From positions 3,286,001 through 3,350,000 of the forward strand of contig NZ_CP130713.1 of NCBI RefSeq assembly GCF_030553055.1: a DNA stretch of 64,000 nt, in the 5' to 3' direction. Source of the DNA: Streptomyces sp. XD-27 (GTDB lineage Bacteria > Actinomycetota > Actinomycetes > Streptomycetales > Streptomycetaceae). Numbering within the stretch: the stretch's first letter is position 1; each line of letters opens with the position of its first letter. This document shows, piece after piece, positions 57,269 to 63,927 of this stretch. Below the pieces are notes generated by a model that searched no databases, had not been told where the DNA came from, and saw only the letters and a program-made list of their open reading frames with translations. The translations under genes were made by a program, and so were the position numbers.

Positions 57269-58528
57269 TTACCGATGCTCCGCCTTGTCCGGTATCGGCA
57301 ATTGGCGCTTCTCGATGGCCGCCGCCATCACCTCGGGGAACAGGTCAGGCGTGCAGGCGAAGGCAGGCGCGCCGAGCCCGGCGAGCGCCGCCGCGTGCGC
57401 GCGGTCGTACGACGGCGCGCCCTCGTCGGACAGCGCGAGCAGCGTCACGAACTGCACGCCGGACGCCTTCATCGCCGCGACCCGGCTCAGCATCTCGTTC
57501 CGTATCCCGCCCTCGTACAGGTCGCTGATGAGGACGACGACGGTGTCGGCGGGCCGGGTGATCCGCGACTGGCAGTACGCCAGCGCCCGGTTGATGTCCG
57601 TGCCGCCGCCGAGCTGGGTGCCGAAGAGGACGTCCACCGGGTCCTCGAGCTGGTCGGTCAGGTCCACGACGGCGGTGTCGAAGACGACCAGGCGGGTGGC
57701 GAGGGAGCGCATCGAGGCGAGGACGGCGCCGAACACGGACGCGTAGACGACGGAGGCGGCCATCGAGCCGGACTGGTCGATGCACAGGATCACCTCCTTG
57801 CGGACGCCGCGTGCGGCCCGCCCGTAGCCGACAAGGCGTTCGGGGATGACGGTGCGGTGCTCGGGGAGGTAGTTCTTGAGGTTGGCCCGGATGGTGCGGT
57901 CCCAGTCGATGTCGCGGTGGCGCGGGCGGCTGATGCGCGCGGACCGGTCGAGGGCGCCGGTGAGCGTGGCCCGGGTCCGGGTGGCCAGCCGCTTCTCCAG
58001 GTCCGCCACGACCTTGCGGACGACGGCGCGCGCCGTCTCCTTGGTGGTCTCCGGCATCGCCTTGTTGAGCGACAGCAGCGTGCCGACGAGATGGACGTCC
58101 GCCTCGACGGCCTCCAGCATCTCGGGCTCCAGCAGCAGGGCGGACAGGCCGAGCCGGTCGATCGCGTCGCGCTGCATGACCTGGACGACGGACGTGGGGA
58201 AGTAGCCGCGGATGTCGCCCAGCCAGCGCGCCACCTGAGGCGCGCCGGCGCCGAGCCCGGCCGAGCGCGGGCCGCCCGCCGCGCCCTGGCCGCCGCGGCC
58301 GGTGCCGTCCTTGGCGGCCGCGCCGTACAGCGCCTCCAGGGTGCGATCCATGGCGGCGTCGCGGCCGCTCAGCGCGTACCCGGTGCCGTCGGCGCCGGCG
58401 CCGGAGCCCGCGTCGCCTTCGCCGCCCAGCACGAGCCGCCAGCGGCGCAGCCGTTCTCGCGCGGCGTCGGTGTCGTTCATGCCGGATGTCGTGGTCGTGC
58501 CCTTCGTGCTGTCCGTCCTGCCCGTCAT
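57269..58528 (-). CDS. VWA-domain protein (YehP-like)
   Basis: A 419-aa protein. The C-terminal von Willebrand A domain has an intact MIDAS (DQSGSM at residues 251-256, then GGGTDINRAL and ISDLYEGG). The N-terminal ~240 residues are helical. With the MoxR ATPase, DUF5682 and SWIM proteins next to it, the set parallels E. coli yehP/L/M/Q. ATG 58528 overlaps the DUF5682 stop (TGATG). Last gene of the minus-strand operon. MoxR-VWA pairs commonly act as chaperone-like remodelling machines; the target is not known. Confidence 0.9.
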   Translation of the reverse strand: MTGRTDSTKGTTTTSGMNDTDAARERLRRWRLVLGGEGDAGSGAGADGTGYALSGRDAAMDRTLEALYGAAAKDGTGRGGQGAAGGPRSAGLGAGAPQVARWLGDIRGYFPTSVVQVMQRDAIDRLGLSALLLEPEMLEAVEADVHLVGTLLSLNKAMPETTKETARAVVRKVVADLEKRLATRTRATLTGALDRSARISRPRHRDIDWDRTIRANLKNYLPEHRTVIPERLVGYGRAARGVRKEVILCIDQSGSMAASVVYASVFGAVLASMRSLATRLVVFDTAVVDLTDQLEDPVDVLFGTQLGGGTDINRALAYCQSRITRPADTVVVLISDLYEGGIRNEMLSRVAAMKASGVQFVTLLALSDEGAPSYDRAHAAALAGLGAPAFACTPDLFPEVMAAAIEKRQLPIPDKAEHR

Positions 58529-61229
58529 CAGGCCGCCCCTGTCCGTGGGTTCGTGTGGCGGTGGTCGTCGCCGAGCCCCAGCAGCAGGTGGAGCGTGGGG
58601 AGTACGGCGACCGCGCGGTCGTGGTCCAGGCCCGGGCCGAACCCGGGGCGGGCGGCTCGGCCGCGGACCGCGCGCCGCCCGGGGCGGCGGGGCCCGCGCC
58701 CCGGCGGACCAGTTCGCCCAACGTGCGGCGGATGCCCGCCTCGTACGCGGAGAACGTGCGGCGCAGCAGGGGCAGCACGTCCGTGAACGCGCCGGCGGGC
58801 ACGCTGGTGAGCCAGCCGTCGAGGAGGGCCAGCAGCCGTTCGTCGTGGACCAGGAGCATGCCGCCGCCCGCTCCCCCTCCGGCGAACCCCTCGATCCACG
58901 CGGCGGCTTCGGGCGGCTCGGTGCCCGGCGAGAGCGCGAGCCGCATCAGCCGGGCCGCCTCGCCCTCGGCCAGCCGGCCGTCGTCCAGCAGCAGCCGGGT
59001 GGCCCGGCCGCGCAGCAGTCCGGGGACGCTGTCGCGGTCGGCGAGGACGCGGAGCGCGCCGGTCCAGCGAACCCGCAGTCCGTCGTCGGCCAGCAGCCCG
59101 ATGGCCTGGTGGACGGCCTCCATATGGGTGCGCAGCTCCGCCGCGCCGTCCGCGTCCAGCCCGGCGCAGGCCGGGGGCAGGCCGACGATGACCCGCTCCG
59201 CGAGCCCGGTGGCCACCTCGGCCAGCGCCGCCGTGCCGGTGCCGCGCACGTCGCCGTACCGCACGGAGCGGACCAGGGCGGGCAGCGCCTGCGCGAGGTG
59301 CCCGACGTCCGCGTCGAGCGCGGCCCGGTCGGCGAGCGCGCGCATCACGACGGGCAGGGCGTCGGTGAGGTCGGCGAGCAGGCAGCGCTCGGCCAGCTCG
59401 GTGATCTCGGCGAGCGCCGCCGCCCCCACGGCCTGGCTCTGCGCCTTGGCGGTGGCGGCGGACACCACGGTGGTGCCCCAGACGCCCGCCTCCGCGACCC
59501 GTACCGACAACTCCGGCTCCCAGCGCAGCCGCCAGCTCTCCCGGAAGGTGCCGGTGGTGCCGCGCGCCGGGCGGGCGGGGGTGCCCCAGTCGACGCTGAG
59601 GAGCCGCAGCCGGTGCAGCAGGCGGCTGCGCGCGGCGTCGTTGTCCTTGCGGAGGTCCAGCTCCAGCTCGCGCTCCGCCGCCTCGGGCTTGAGGCGCAGC
59701 GTGCGCTGGGCGCGAGTCAGGTCGCGCTGGAGCGGAACCGCAGGGGCGGAGTCCGGCACCTCGCCGAGGACGTCGCCGACGACGAGCCGGTCCCGTACGA
59801 GCGCGAGCGGCACGTCGGAGCCGTCGCACATCACCGCGCGCACCGCGTCGAGGGTCTCGGCGAGCCCGGCGAGCGGACGGCCACGCATGACGGCGAGGGT
59901 CTCGGCGAGCCGTACGGCTTCGATGACATGGGCGGAGGAGACGGGGAGGTCCTCGGCGCGGAGGAGGTTGGCGACCTCGGTCAGCCAGCGCTCGATGGGC
60001 CGGTCGGGGGCGCGGAAGAGGTGGCCGTACCAGCCGGGTGAGGTGATTCCGGCGCCGTACCCGCTGGCGCGGGAGAGCCGGCGGTGGGTCCACGGCACCC
60101 AGCTCAGCTCGGCCTTGACCTTGGGCAGGCCCTTGAGGAGCGCGCGGTCGGCGGTCACGGTGGTCTTCTCGGACAGCGCGGGTACGTGCCAGGCCCCGCA
60201 GACGACGGCGACCCCGTCCCCGAACTCCCGCCGCGCCTCCCGCAACCGCAACCGCATGTGCGCCTCGCGCACGGCGTCGTGGGGCTGCCCCCCATGCCCG
60301 TACGCGGCCCGCAGAGCACCCATGGCCTCCGCCAGCGCCACGAACGGCGCGAGCGCGGAGCGAATCGCCGCGGAACCGTGCGGTGCGGCGTCCCCAGGCG
60401 CGGCGTCCCCAGGCGCGTCTTCCGGCGCGCCGGCACGGTCAGCCCTCGTCGCCGCGCCCGTCGCCCCCGCGCCCGTCGCGGCGTCGCGCTCGGACGGGGC
60501 GTCACCCGCCGTGGCGGGTGCGGCCTCCGGGGCGGGGCGCGGGCCGGAGGCGCGGTGTTCGATGACGTCCTCCCACCAGCGCTCCGGGTCGTCGTAGCCG
60601 GCGGCCTGGGCGAGTGCGGCGAGCGGGTCGACGCGCGGGTCCGCCGGGCCGACACCGTCCGCCGGGGCGTTCGGGGGCGGCTCCGCGGCCGTGGCGGGGC
60701 CCGGCGCGTACGTCCCCGCGCCGTCGGGCGGCGGCTCGGGCCGCCCGGCGCCCTCGTCACCCCGGGCACCGTCGCCAGGTTCGGCGCCGTCGCCGCGGGC
60801 GCCCTCGGTGGCGCTGCCGGGACCCTCGCCACGCTCGGCCTTCTCGGCGCCTTCGGCGCCGTTCCGCTCGGCCAGCGCCAGCGACACCGCCGCCGGGAGG
60901 TCGATGAACCGGACCGGAACCTCGTGGGTCAGCGCCCACCGCATGGCCACCCATTCCGGCGAGAACTCGGCCAGCGGCCAGAACGCGGCGCGGCCCGGGT
61001 CGTCGGCGGCGTGGGCCAGCAGCGCGACCGGCGGGCGCATGCCGTCCTCGGCGGCGAGGCCGATCAGCGCGTCCGCCTCCGGTGGCCCCTCGATGAGCAC
61101 GGCGCTCGGCCGGCAGGCGTCCAGCGCCGCGCGGACGGCCCGCGCGGAGCCGGGGCCGTGGTGCCGTATGCCCAGCAGCACCGGGCCGCCGCCGGGCCCG
61201 CGGGCCGCGTGCGGCGATGGGGTCGTCAC
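58528..61229 (-). pseudogene. DUF5682-family protein (YehM-like), frameshifted near its C-terminus
   Basis: About 900 aa if repaired. The N-terminus (LLGIRHHGPGSARAVRAALDACRP, LIEGPPEADALI) and the VVCGAWHVPAL and PWTHRRLSRASGYGAGITSPGWYGHLF segments identify the family. A disordered Ala/Gly/Pro/Glu insertion occupies residues ~125-230. From ~58700 the frame loses sense, while the -1 frame reads HDRAVAVLPTLHLLLGLGDDH and stops at 58528, overlapping the VWA start. One missing base in a G/C run near 58650-58700 would restore it. GTG start overlaps the MoxR stop (GTGA). Confidence 0.82.
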
Positions 61230-62365
61230 GCGCTCACCTCACGGCACGCCCGGTAGAAGTCCTTCCACCCTTCCCGTTCGCGGACGACCGCCTCCAGATA
61301 CTCCTGCCAGATCACGCGGTCGGCGGCCGGGTCGCGGACCACCGCGCCGAGGATGCCCGCGGCCACGTCCCCGGCGCGCAGCACGCCGTCGCCGAAGTGC
61401 GCGGCCAGCGCCAGCCCGCCGGTGACCACGGAGATCGCCTCCGCCGTGGACAGCGTGCCGGAGGGCGACTTGAGCTTCGTACGCCCATCCGCCGTGACGC
61501 CGTCCCGCAGCTCCCGGAAGACCGTGACCACCCTGCGGATCTCGTCCACGCCCTCGGGCAGCCGGGGCAGGTCCAGGGAGCGGCCGAGCTGCTCGACGCG
61601 CCGCGCGACGATGTCGACCTCCGCCTCGGCGGTCGCGGGCAGTGGCAGCACCACCGTGTTGAACCGGCGGCGCAGCGCGCTGGAGAGCTCGTTGACCCCG
61701 CGGTCGCGGTCGTTGGCCGTGGCGATCAGGTTGAAGCCGCGGACGGCCTGCACCTCCTCCCCCAGCTCCGGGATCGGCAGGATCTTCTCGGACAGCACCG
61801 TGATCAGGGTGTCCTGTACATCGGCGGGGATACGGGTCAGCTCCTCGACCCGCGCGGTCATGCCCTCCGCCATCGCCCGCATCACCGGGCTGGGCACGAG
61901 CGCGTCGCGGCTGGGGCCGTGGGCGAGCAGCTGCGCGTAGTTCCAGCCGTAGCGGATGGCCTCCTCGGGGGTGCCCGCGGTGCCCTGGACCAGCAGCGTC
62001 GAGTCGCCGCTGACCGCCGCCGCCAGGTGCTCGGACACCCAGGTCTTGGCCGTGCCGGGGACCCCCAGCAGGAGCAGCGCCCGGTCGGTGGCCAGCGTCG
62101 TCACGGCGACCTCGATGATGCGGCGGGGGCCCACGTACTTGGGCGTGATCACAGAGCCGTCGGGCAGGGTGCCGCCGAGCAGATACGTGGCGACGGCCCA
62201 GGGCGAGAGCCGCCAGCGGGCGGGGCGCGGTCGGTCGTCAGCCGCGGCGAGCGCCGCGAGTTCGTCGGCGAAGGCGTCTTCCGCGTGCGGGCGCAGGGCC
62301 GTCTCCGCCGCCGCGTTCACCGTGTTCGTGGTGTGTGTCGTGGGTCCGGGCGCAGTCGTGGTCAC
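61226..62365 (-). CDS. MoxR-type AAA+ ATPase (YehL-like)
   Basis: A 379-aa AAA+ ATPase. Walker A GVPGTAKT at residues 101-108, a Walker B/sensor region (FNLIATANDRDRGVNELSSALRRRF) with the arginine finger, and AAA lid segments at the C-terminus. The N-terminal ~50 residues are a flexible Thr/Ala-rich tail. GTG start with GGGGGA upstream. It heads a minus operon MoxR-DUF5682-VWA and is divergent from the SWIM gene. A PafBC-type promoter with -35 TTGTCAGTG is placed ~60 bp upstream. Confidence 0.92.
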   Translation of the reverse strand: MTTTAPGPTTHTTNTVNAAAETALRPHAEDAFADELAALAAADDRPRPARWRLSPWAVATYLLGGTLPDGSVITPKYVGPRRIIEVAVTTLATDRALLLLGVPGTAKTWVSEHLAAAVSGDSTLLVQGTAGTPEEAIRYGWNYAQLLAHGPSRDALVPSPVMRAMAEGMTARVEELTRIPADVQDTLITVLSEKILPIPELGEEVQAVRGFNLIATANDRDRGVNELSSALRRRFNTVVLPLPATAEAEVDIVARRVEQLGRSLDLPRLPEGVDEIRRVVTVFRELRDGVTADGRTKLKSPSGTLSTAEAISVVTGGLALAAHFGDGVLRAGDVAAGILGAVVRDPAADRVIWQEYLEAVVREREGWKDFYRACREVSA

Positions 62366-62410
62366 AGTTCCCCCAACTCGTCACTCAGTCCGTTTCCGGA
62401 TGCGTGTCCC

Positions 62411-62492
62411 ACCCTGCACCAGCCCACTGACAATCCGTCCGGGCCCAACAAACCCGCAGGTCAGGGCGATTGTCAGTGGGTGGCCGTACTGT
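62411..62492. promoter_or_regulatory. Two divergent RecA-NDp/PafBC-type promoters
   Basis: Plus: TTGTCAGTG at 62470-62478, eight bases, then TACTGT at 62487-62492, an exact fit to the PafBC-dependent pattern TTGTCRGTG-N8-TAnnnT, ending seven bases before the SWIM ATG (leaderless). Minus: TTGTCAGTG (62433 to 62425), eight bases, then CAGGGT (62416 to 62411), a near fit with C for T at the first position, 45 bases before the MoxR GTG. The two -35 elements are part of a 13-bp perfect inverted repeat (CCCACTGACAATC, 62423-62435, and GATTGTCAGTGGG, 62468-62480). Confidence 0.75.
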
Positions 62493-62499
62493 CGTAGAC

Positions 62500-63927
62500 A
62501 TGAATCCGCAGGGGGAACGCTGGACGGCGGAACAGGTGCTCTCGCTCGCTCCTGACGCCGCATCACGCAAGGCGGGAAGCAAGCTGGCCGCGGCCGGGCC
62601 CTGGTCGGGGACCGGAGCGGCGACCGTGGCGACGGAAGGGCGCGGCGGACAGGCTCTGTGGGGCCTGTGCAAGGGCAGCGGCAGCACGCCCTACCAGACG
62701 ATCGTCGACCTCGGCGGGCCGGACGGCCCGGGATACACGTGCAGTTGCCCGAGCCGGAAGTTCCCGTGCAAGCACGCGCTGGGCCTGCTTCTGCTGTGGG
62801 CGGGCGAGACGGGAGAAGGGGGCGTGCGGGAGGCGGAGGGGCCTCCGGAGTGGGCCGAGCCGTGGCTGAGCGGGCGGCGTGAGCGCGCGGAGCGCCGGGC
62901 CACCGAGGCGGCGGACGGTCCTGGCGGGGCCGCCGGTCCGGGCGGAGGCGGCGGTGCGGGAGCCGCCGTTCCGGCCGCGGCCGGGCGGCGGGCCGAACAG
63001 CGGGCGCGGCGGATCACCGCGGGCGCCACGGAGCTGGAGCAGCGGCTGGCCGACCTGCTGCGCGGCGGACTGGCCGAGGTCGGCGACAGCCATCCCGACC
63101 TGTGGGACGAGACCGCGGCCCGCATGGTCGACGCCCAGGCGCCGGGCCTCGGCGCGCGCGTGCGCGAGCTGGGGGCGGTGCGCGCCTCCGGCCCCGGCTG
63201 GCCCGCCCGGCTTCTGGAGGAGTGCGCCCTCACCCATCTGCTCAACCGCGGCTATCTCCATATGGACGCGCTGGCACCGGAGTTGGCGGCGACGACCCGG
63301 TCGCGGGTCGGCATCACCATGAACGCCGCGGAGGTGCTGTCCTCCGGCCCGGCCGTGCGGGACCGCTGGCTGGTCCTGGGCCGGCAGGACAGCAGCGACG
63401 GCAAGGTCACCACGCGCCGGGTCTGGCTGCGCGGCGAGCGCACGGACCGGATGGCGTTGCTGCTGTCCTTCGGCGCGGCCGGACGGCCGCCCGAACCCGC
63501 CCCGCCCACCGGCCTCGTCGTGGACGCGGACCTCGTCTACTACCCCTCCGCCCGCCCGCTGCGGGCGGCGCTCGGCACCCGCCACGGACAACCGTCGCCG
63601 CCGTCGGACGCGTCGGCCGTACCGCACGGCGTCGACATCCCCACCGCCCTGGCGGGGTACGGGGCGGCGCTGCGTGACGACCCGTGGCTGGACGCCTGGC
63701 CCACCGTCCTGACCGGCGTCACCCCGATACCGGGCCCGGACGGCTGGCAGCTCGCGGACGCCCGGACGGCCTCCGCGCTTCCGGTGGACCCGCGCTGCCT
63801 GGCGCGTACGAACCTGTGGCAGCTGACGGCCGTGTCGGGAGGCGGCCCGGTCACGGTCTTCGGCGAGTGCGGCCACCGGGGCTTCGCGCCGCTCACCACG
63901 TGGGACCCGCAGCCCGTATCGCTGTGA
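62500..63927 (+). CDS. SWIM zinc-finger protein (YehQ-like)
   Basis: A 475-aa protein. The SWIM finger CxCx6CxH is complete: C81, C83, C90 and H92 (YTCSCPSRKFPCKHALGL). The region between residues ~135 and 180 is a Gly/Ala-rich linker; the remainder is a large uncharacterised domain (LEERLADLLRGGLAEVGD-like start, EECALTHLLNRGYLHMDAL, ending GHRGFAPLTTWDPQPVSL). SWIM domains bind DNA or proteins. ATG 62500 lies seven bases after a PafBC-type -10, so the message is likely leaderless. Divergent from the MoxR-DUF5682-VWA operon. Confidence 0.88.
   Translation: MNPQGERWTAEQVLSLAPDAASRKAGSKLAAAGPWSGTGAATVATEGRGGQALWGLCKGSGSTPYQTIVDLGGPDGPGYTCSCPSRKFPCKHALGLLLLWAGETGEGGVREAEGPPEWAEPWLSGRRERAERRATEAADGPGGAAGPGGGGGAGAAVPAAAGRRAEQRARRITAGATELEQRLADLLRGGLAEVGDSHPDLWDETAARMVDAQAPGLGARVRELGAVRASGPGWPARLLEECALTHLLNRGYLHMDALAPELAATTRSRVGITMNAAEVLSSGPAVRDRWLVLGRQDSSDGKVTTRRVWLRGERTDRMALLLSFGAAGRPPEPAPPTGLVVDADLVYYPSARPLRAALGTRHGQPSPPSDASAVPHGVDIPTALAGYGAALRDDPWLDAWPTVLTGVTPIPGPDGWQLADARTASALPVDPRCLARTNLWQLTAVSGGGPVTVFGECGHRGFAPLTTWDPQPVSL

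Follow-up and report, generated by a model that had tools for sequence, protein, structure and literature searches.

A divergent pair of predicted PafBC-type DNA-damage promoters with quantised spacing in a MoxR/DUF5682/VWA/SWIM gene cluster of Streptomyces

The DNA analysed here, referred to as the window, comprises 64,000 nucleotides of the genome of Streptomyces sp. XD-27 (contig NZ_CP130713.1, positions 3,286,001 to 3,350,000). Close to its end, genes for a VWA_CoxE protein, a DUF5682 protein and a MoxR-type ATPase are arranged divergently from a gene for a SWIM zinc-finger protein (Table 1). A preliminary description of this DNA had likened the four genes to yehL, yehM, yehP and yehQ of Escherichia coli and had suspected promoters of the DNA damage-responsive RecA-NDp/PafBC type between the two arms of the cluster. 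The comparison holds, as the corresponding E. coli K-12 products match the same four Pfam families (AAA_5, DUF5682, VWA_CoxE and SWIM, respectively). All four genes are present, but the cluster does not end with them: a fifth member, a DUF5691 gene, adjoins the SWIM gene on its 3' side just past the end of the window. In E. coli the genes are grouped together with yehI and are co-directional, whereas in the cluster studied here the arrangement is divergent, DUF5691 follows SWIM and no YehI gene was seen. At a threshold of E 1e-120, MoxR is present in 101/104 genomes of the genus, the misses being G432, G478 and G504, and the cluster therefore belongs to the core genome.

Between the arms lies the inverted pair of TTGTCAGTG elements that had been described, each followed by a −10 box at N8 spacing. 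These are the only exact copies in the window; if one mismatch is allowed, the number rises to ten, as compared to 4.9 expected. The promoter facing SWIM (SWIM arm) combines N8 with a TAnnnT hexamer, as is characteristic of RecA-NDp/PafBC promoters, and provides the single occurrence of the strict motif TTGTCRGTG-N8-TAnnnT in the window (62470–62492; none in 100 shuffles). The ATG of SWIM starts only 8 nt downstream of this −10 box, and the transcript is therefore predicted to be leaderless. The promoter facing MoxR (MoxR arm) deviates from TAnnnT, its −10 box being CAnnnT at N8. Thus, of the two −10 boxes noted previously, TACTGT fits the consensus as stated, but CAGGGT does not represent a decayed box, since CAnnnT occupies this position in 111/111 loci. 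Control by LexA was also considered and rejected; the single GAACNNNNGTTC in the window is 34 kb off.

Named relatives were found by their MoxR, taking the best 80 of 551 (79 titled Streptomyces, one Streptomycetaceae), to which the MoxR of strain XD-27 is 87–94% identical. These 80, the own locus and 30 further loci that had been picked for an exact pair, and hence form a biased set, make up the 111 loci compared, 108 of which have a distinct MoxR sequence. SWIM and MoxR are divergent in 111/111 loci, and both arms are present throughout with at most one mismatch each (exact in 101/111). Conservation in orthologous divergent regions had been proposed earlier as a check of the suspected promoters, and in the fair set of named relatives 80/80 indeed keep both arms, 70 of them exactly and the others with no more than one mismatch per arm. 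In Streptomyces rimosus (L113) both arms are exact. The SWIM −10 box is TAnnnT in all 111 loci, with preference given to candidates bearing a −10-like hexamer where a locus offered several. TGGTG, which precedes the MoxR −10 box, is 97–100% conserved per base, and the SWIM ATG lies 8 nt past its −10 box in about 96% of the loci.

The spacing of the arms is quantised. In 90 of the 108 loci they are at most 90 bp apart, and arm-to-arm lengths are solely 43–45, 54–57, 66–68 or 78–79 bp; the remaining 18 loci range from 103 to 782 bp. The spacing period is 11.1–12.1 bp, that is about one DNA turn per step, with a phase resultant of 0.933 at the best period as compared to null maxima of 0.415 (90 random lengths) and 0.782 (21). 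In a quick tree of MoxR DNA, several branches of which are weakly supported, at least 20 switches of length class are needed. This quantised divergent spacing is new here. In 13 loci (L078, L085, L105, L117, L138 and others) the arms are more than 500 bp apart, each keeping its promoter; judged by eye, a short gene is inserted between them in L117 and L138.

In phase with both arms stands a third element, termed X (GCAGGTCAG), which may have either orientation and is likewise new here. It is present with at most one mismatch in 104/108 loci, while shuffled 9-mers average 1.5 and reach 40 at most. Counted from a presumed dyad centre (a full palindrome exists in a few loci only), X lies 13–14, 24–26, 36–38 or 47–48 bp upstream of an arm, with one outlier at 9 bp. 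When the arms are more than 500 bp apart, X is retained at both of them in 10/13 loci. Across the genus, GCAGGTCRG-N4-7-TGTCRGTG occurs in 102/121 genomes (reversed control, 7 in total). X together with a full CAnnnT promoter was found at 117 sites in 73 genomes and with a full TAnnnT promoter at 60 sites in 56 genomes (control 0 in either case); these numbers include the MoxR and SWIM arms, respectively, and are not independent, as related genomes share sequence by descent. Two overlapping searches yielded 59 fetched X loci (L251–L309), 51 of which fit the full promoter pattern and correspond to 37 distinct sites: 11 at HEPN_SAV_6107 genes, 9 MoxR arms, 4 SWIM arms, 3 each at Lhr helicase and pentapeptide repeat genes, 2 at DNA_pol_A-like genes and 5 at single genes including one SNF2-type helicase. 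Confinement of X to the MoxR/SWIM cluster was rejected, as it recurs at other promoters. A strict tie of X to CAnnnT was rejected as well, since the association is weak (14/270 CAnnnT versus 6/333 TAnnnT sites in 13 genomes, Fisher p 0.023).

In the 7.55 Mb genome of strain XD-27 the strict motif occurs 17 times, as compared to 0 for the backwards pattern. Each site was paired with a downstream reading frame picked by third-position G+C. According to Pfam, the genes behind the sites include recA, ruvC, ung (uracil-DNA glycosylase), ogt (O6-methylguanine methyltransferase), phoH and a WGR-domain protein gene, among others; SWIM is one of the 17 frames, and 4 have no Pfam match. A further gene we take, from its domains, to be radA-like. 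In 13/17 cases (L001–L017) at most 10 nt separate the end of the −10 box from the earliest start codon that is possible (chosen mechanically), and leaderless transcripts may be common in this putative regulon. The WGR protein also has a beta-propeller (L005:1522-3009), and its site lies ~3 kb from the ogt promoter. As to the regulator, candidate pafB and pafC genes are present as neighbouring WYL genes close to a pafA-like gene (pafA and the gene order were recognised by eye); in total, the genome yields 10 WYL matches. In 13 genomes of the genus, among which S. venezuelae is not included, 333 strict TAnnnT sites face 1 reversed, and 270 CAnnnT sites face 14 in the reversed control. Thus, CAnnnT looks like a second promoter subclass judging from the motif counts, which is new here, and the MoxR arm fits this numerous group.

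Promoters of the RecA-NDp type are already known from Streptomyces (PMC2375139, PMC5087735; these and the other papers cited are drawn on in excerpt). The type was defined by work on the S. rimosus recA promoter (Ahel 2002, as cited in PMC2375139 and PMC5087735). The macrodomain gene SCO6735 of S. coelicolor is UV-inducible and likewise has a RecA-NDp promoter; it is a single gene for a different protein, and no divergent pair is described for it in the excerpt of PMC5087735. Like mycobacterial RecA-NDp/PafBC promoters and Streptomyces recA, the promoters reported here have TTGTCRGTG, N8 and a −10 box whose second base is A and whose sixth is T, and the presence of pafBC candidates and of DNA-repair genes behind the same motif in the own genome is a further parallel. 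They differ in the quantised divergent pair, the third element X and CAnnnT on one arm. Among the papers listed and the excerpts searched, none was found that ties the cluster to DNA damage, although the SIGffRid gene list for S. coelicolor (PMC2375139) may contain it, and none was found for DUF5682.

The motif is also linked to further DUF5682 clusters, designated types B, C and D, which Streptomyces genomes contain in addition. For types B and C mostly the first gene and the promoter were read, with longer stretches in L186, L187, L189 and L190. Type B, for which L187 provided a long stretch, corresponds to E. coli in gene content and order, with a YehI-type WGR-DUF4132 gene ahead of yehL, yehM, yehP and yehQ counterparts; WGR thus also heads this cluster. 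Its YehI-type gene is present in 9/121 genomes of the genus and preceded by the strict motif in 8/9, the motif pointing away from YehI in the ninth. In type C the motif stands before the first gene in 23/23 genomes (21 strict, 2 with one mismatch); this gene has no Pfam match, and no SWIM nature is claimed for it. In type D it precedes the operon in 6/6 loci (4 strict, 2 with one mismatch), the first gene being DUF4132 in the one tested (L230). These three paralogous cluster types carrying the motif are new here. Outside Streptomyces, two G305 loci (types C and D) both lack the motif, and in a type C locus (L189) it lies ~2 kb before the VWA gene. In a sister family of the same order, 8/11 loci have a near-identical MoxR-side promoter, TTGTCAGTG-[GC]CGTGGTG-CAnAAT, which precedes DUF5691-MoxR-DUF5682 genes (DUF5691 tested in L239), and the SWIM gene is preceded by a site in 5/11 (2 strict, 3 with one mismatch). 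The first gene of type C (L206–L229) gives a two-piece match in different frames in 16/23 genomes, often with a TGA near residue 130–150, and reads as a single frame in a few genomes; the pattern is possibly due to programmed frameshifting. In L238:1-5590 two divergent genes have a WGR stretch in common at their starts and flank a RecA-NDp site, which looks like a partial duplication of YehI.

Models of relatives' proteins predict an EreA/ChaN-like hydrolase fold for the N-terminus of DUF5682, which is new here, and a helical repeat for the C-terminus, which makes up much of the protein. The N-terminus contains an invariant R-H, E and H, with one further nearly invariant H; these may correspond to the catalytic His and Glu of EreA/ChaN/TraB-like proteins. 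DUF5682 differs from these proteins in that a long helical repeat is attached to the predicted fold and its gene stands beside those of a MoxR-VWA pair. Whole-protein Foldseek returned mostly helical-repeat matches and was rejected as a guide to the fold, and comparison of the DUF5682 sequence with solved structures gave no convincing match. In strain XD-27, the DUF5682 gene shifts frame at about 58641–58647, ~30 codons ahead of the natural end in relatives' proteins, and the 1294-aa mechanical open reading frame is therefore not the real protein. The DUF5691 gene is frame-shifted as well (L250:4356-4374; likewise judged against relatives' proteins), and both shifts could be assembly errors or decay. 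Ahead of the MoxR start, a purine-rich run is also present in the relatives inspected by eye.

Table 1. Genes and promoter elements of the cluster in the window
Feature	Position	Strand	Basis
VWA_CoxE protein gene, YehP-like	57269..58528	−	Pfam PF05762, E 3.2e-60
DUF5682 gene, YehM-like	58552..61229	−	PF18934, E 1.1e-283; tblastn with relative's protein P0001
MoxR-type AAA+ ATPase gene, YehL-like, GTG start	61226..62365	−	PF07728 (AAA_5), E 3e-37
GGGGG, ribosome-binding-like, ahead of MoxR GTG	62370..62374	−	Sequence
MoxR-side −10, CAGGGT (CAnnnT subclass), TGGTG ahead	62411..62416	−	Sequence; N8 spacing
MoxR-side TTGTCAGTG, RecA-NDp/PafBC −26 element	62425..62433	−	Exact match
Element X, GCAGGTCAG, phased with the two arms	62456..62464	+	Sequence; comparison of relatives
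SWIM-side TTGTCAGTG, RecA-NDp/PafBC −26 element	62470..62478	+	Exact match
SWIM-side −10, TACTGT	62487..62492	+	N8 spacing; sequence
SWIM zinc-finger gene, YehQ-like, leaderless start predicted	62500..63927	+	PF04434, E 4.8e-07

Given the two divergent RecA-NDp promoters, the cluster is likely switched on by DNA damage via PafBC. We consider it probable, as the best explanation of these sequence patterns, that two divergent PafBC-type promoters drive the cluster and that its products form a damage-induced machine. Within this reading the predicted wiring to damage promoters is strongly supported by the sequence; substrate and reaction of the machine are a guess. By analogy to published work on PafBC in mycobacteria (PMC11804915, PMC6789036), damage-derived single-stranded DNA would activate PafBC, which would recruit RNA polymerase to the two −26 elements. 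The SWIM-DUF5691 arm would presumably use the consensus TAnnnT −10 box and the MoxR-DUF5682-VWA arm the non-consensus CAnnnT with the conserved TGGTG. X, which relative to the predicted start sites lies at about −44, −55, −66 or −78, may bind a co-regulator, which could then act on both promoters. The MoxR ATPase and the VWA protein are predicted to remodel the EreA/ChaN-like hydrolase DUF5682 or to load it onto a target, which would be chosen by the SWIM and DUF5691 proteins and is perhaps a protein bound at damaged DNA.

Several observations weigh against this interpretation. The phase period of 11.1–12.1 bp exceeds the 10.5 bp of B-DNA. Within two mismatches, X is missing from five SWIM arms and two MoxR arms among the 111 loci and is therefore not indispensable. 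Of 11 loci in the sister family, 3 showed no MoxR-side site and 6 none before SWIM. The motif was not seen in the fetched stretches of 10 orthologous loci outside the order (one cut inside SWIM); thus, the machine does not require damage control everywhere, and PafBC control as an ancestral trait of all DUF5682 clusters was rejected. L178 and L182, which are of a different kind or incomplete, show no motif either. PMC9380542 states that the mycobacterial PafBC motif is seemingly not conserved in S. venezuelae. Foldseek alone gave no match for the DUF5682 fold at E 0.001 or better, and in view of the shifted DUF5682 and DUF5691 frames the own cluster copy may be damaged or mis-assembled. Finally, since the genome of strain XD-27 yields 10 WYL matches, the motif could be recognised by a WYL regulator other than PafBC.

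The latter point leads to the rival that survives best. That is, the arms may be damage promoters read by a WYL regulator other than PafBC, or PafBC may need an obligatory activator at X, in which case damage alone would be insufficient. The near-universal presence of X at the cluster and its recurrence at other promoters, its weak bias towards CAnnnT sites and the non-consensus MoxR −10 box would all fit. However, the motif agrees with the PafBC element in every letter, recA and ruvC share it in a genome that has pafBC candidates, and no near X exists at 327/333 TAnnnT sites, so that we regard this as possible but on balance improbable. Rather unlikely, in our estimate, is a CoxD/CoxE-type chaperone for metal or cofactor insertion whose client is needed after damage, with DUF5682 as a scaffold instead of an enzyme. 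In Pfam the VWA protein matches VWA_CoxE best, MoxR-vWA pairs perform such insertions elsewhere (PMC7159879) and a large part of DUF5682 is helical repeat; the invariant R-H, E and H in the modelled EreA/ChaN-like N-terminus speak against it, and no gene for a client enzyme was recognised among the five.

The cluster also resembles the ternary conflict systems of a MoxR ATPase, a vWA protein and a third component (eLife 2020, PMC7159879), and could be an anti-phage system armed by phage-caused DNA damage. The bpMoxR profile matches the MoxR of the window at E 1.5e-05, yet with 24.6 bits it stays below the cut-off of 27 bits. PADLOC finds 0 families for five proteins (three from the window, two from relatives), and no beta-propeller or effector domain was detected by Pfam in the window proteins. 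Moreover, the genes belong to the core genome and not to a variable island, with a UvrD/PcrA-like helicase gene ~6 kb from SWIM, and we think such a system quite improbable. Because of the core-genome status and the lack of a PADLOC match, defence against mobile elements, which the preliminary description had left beside repair and replication stress, is less likely than either of these roles. Chance or functionless shared descent can practically be dismissed: kinship does share sequence and makes the X and pair counts non-independent, but the arms are constant in spite of a diverging spacer, whose bases were not seen conserved equally to the arms, the length class switches at least 20 times, the motif also stands at paralogous clusters, and shuffles and reversed controls (0, or 1 over the 13 genomes) led us to reject its chance occurrence.

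Returning to damage control via PafBC, a more far-reaching version can be offered only tentatively. Four paralogous lineages of AAA+/VWA-driven EreA/ChaN-fold hydrolases might be wired into the PafBC response, and in the core lineage the phased promoters might share X as an operator, so that a second factor must agree with the single-stranded DNA signal. The machine would then be a remodeller or hydrolase of proteins at damage sites, e.g. clearing protein from damaged DNA, and X and CAnnnT would mark composite damage promoters missed by TAnnnT searches. The CAnnnT sites suggest that a large share of damage promoters escapes current motif definitions, although not all 270 need be promoters. X, as a putative operator, could be used to fish out its binding protein. 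The findings further bear on the question of whether Streptomyces has a PafBC-type response, which PMC9380542 leaves open in the part drawn on here. If damage control of the cluster is true, a little-studied machine would work in the damage response, and this would be the first physiological context for DUF5682 and DUF5691 proteins and for the yehLMPQ genes of E. coli.

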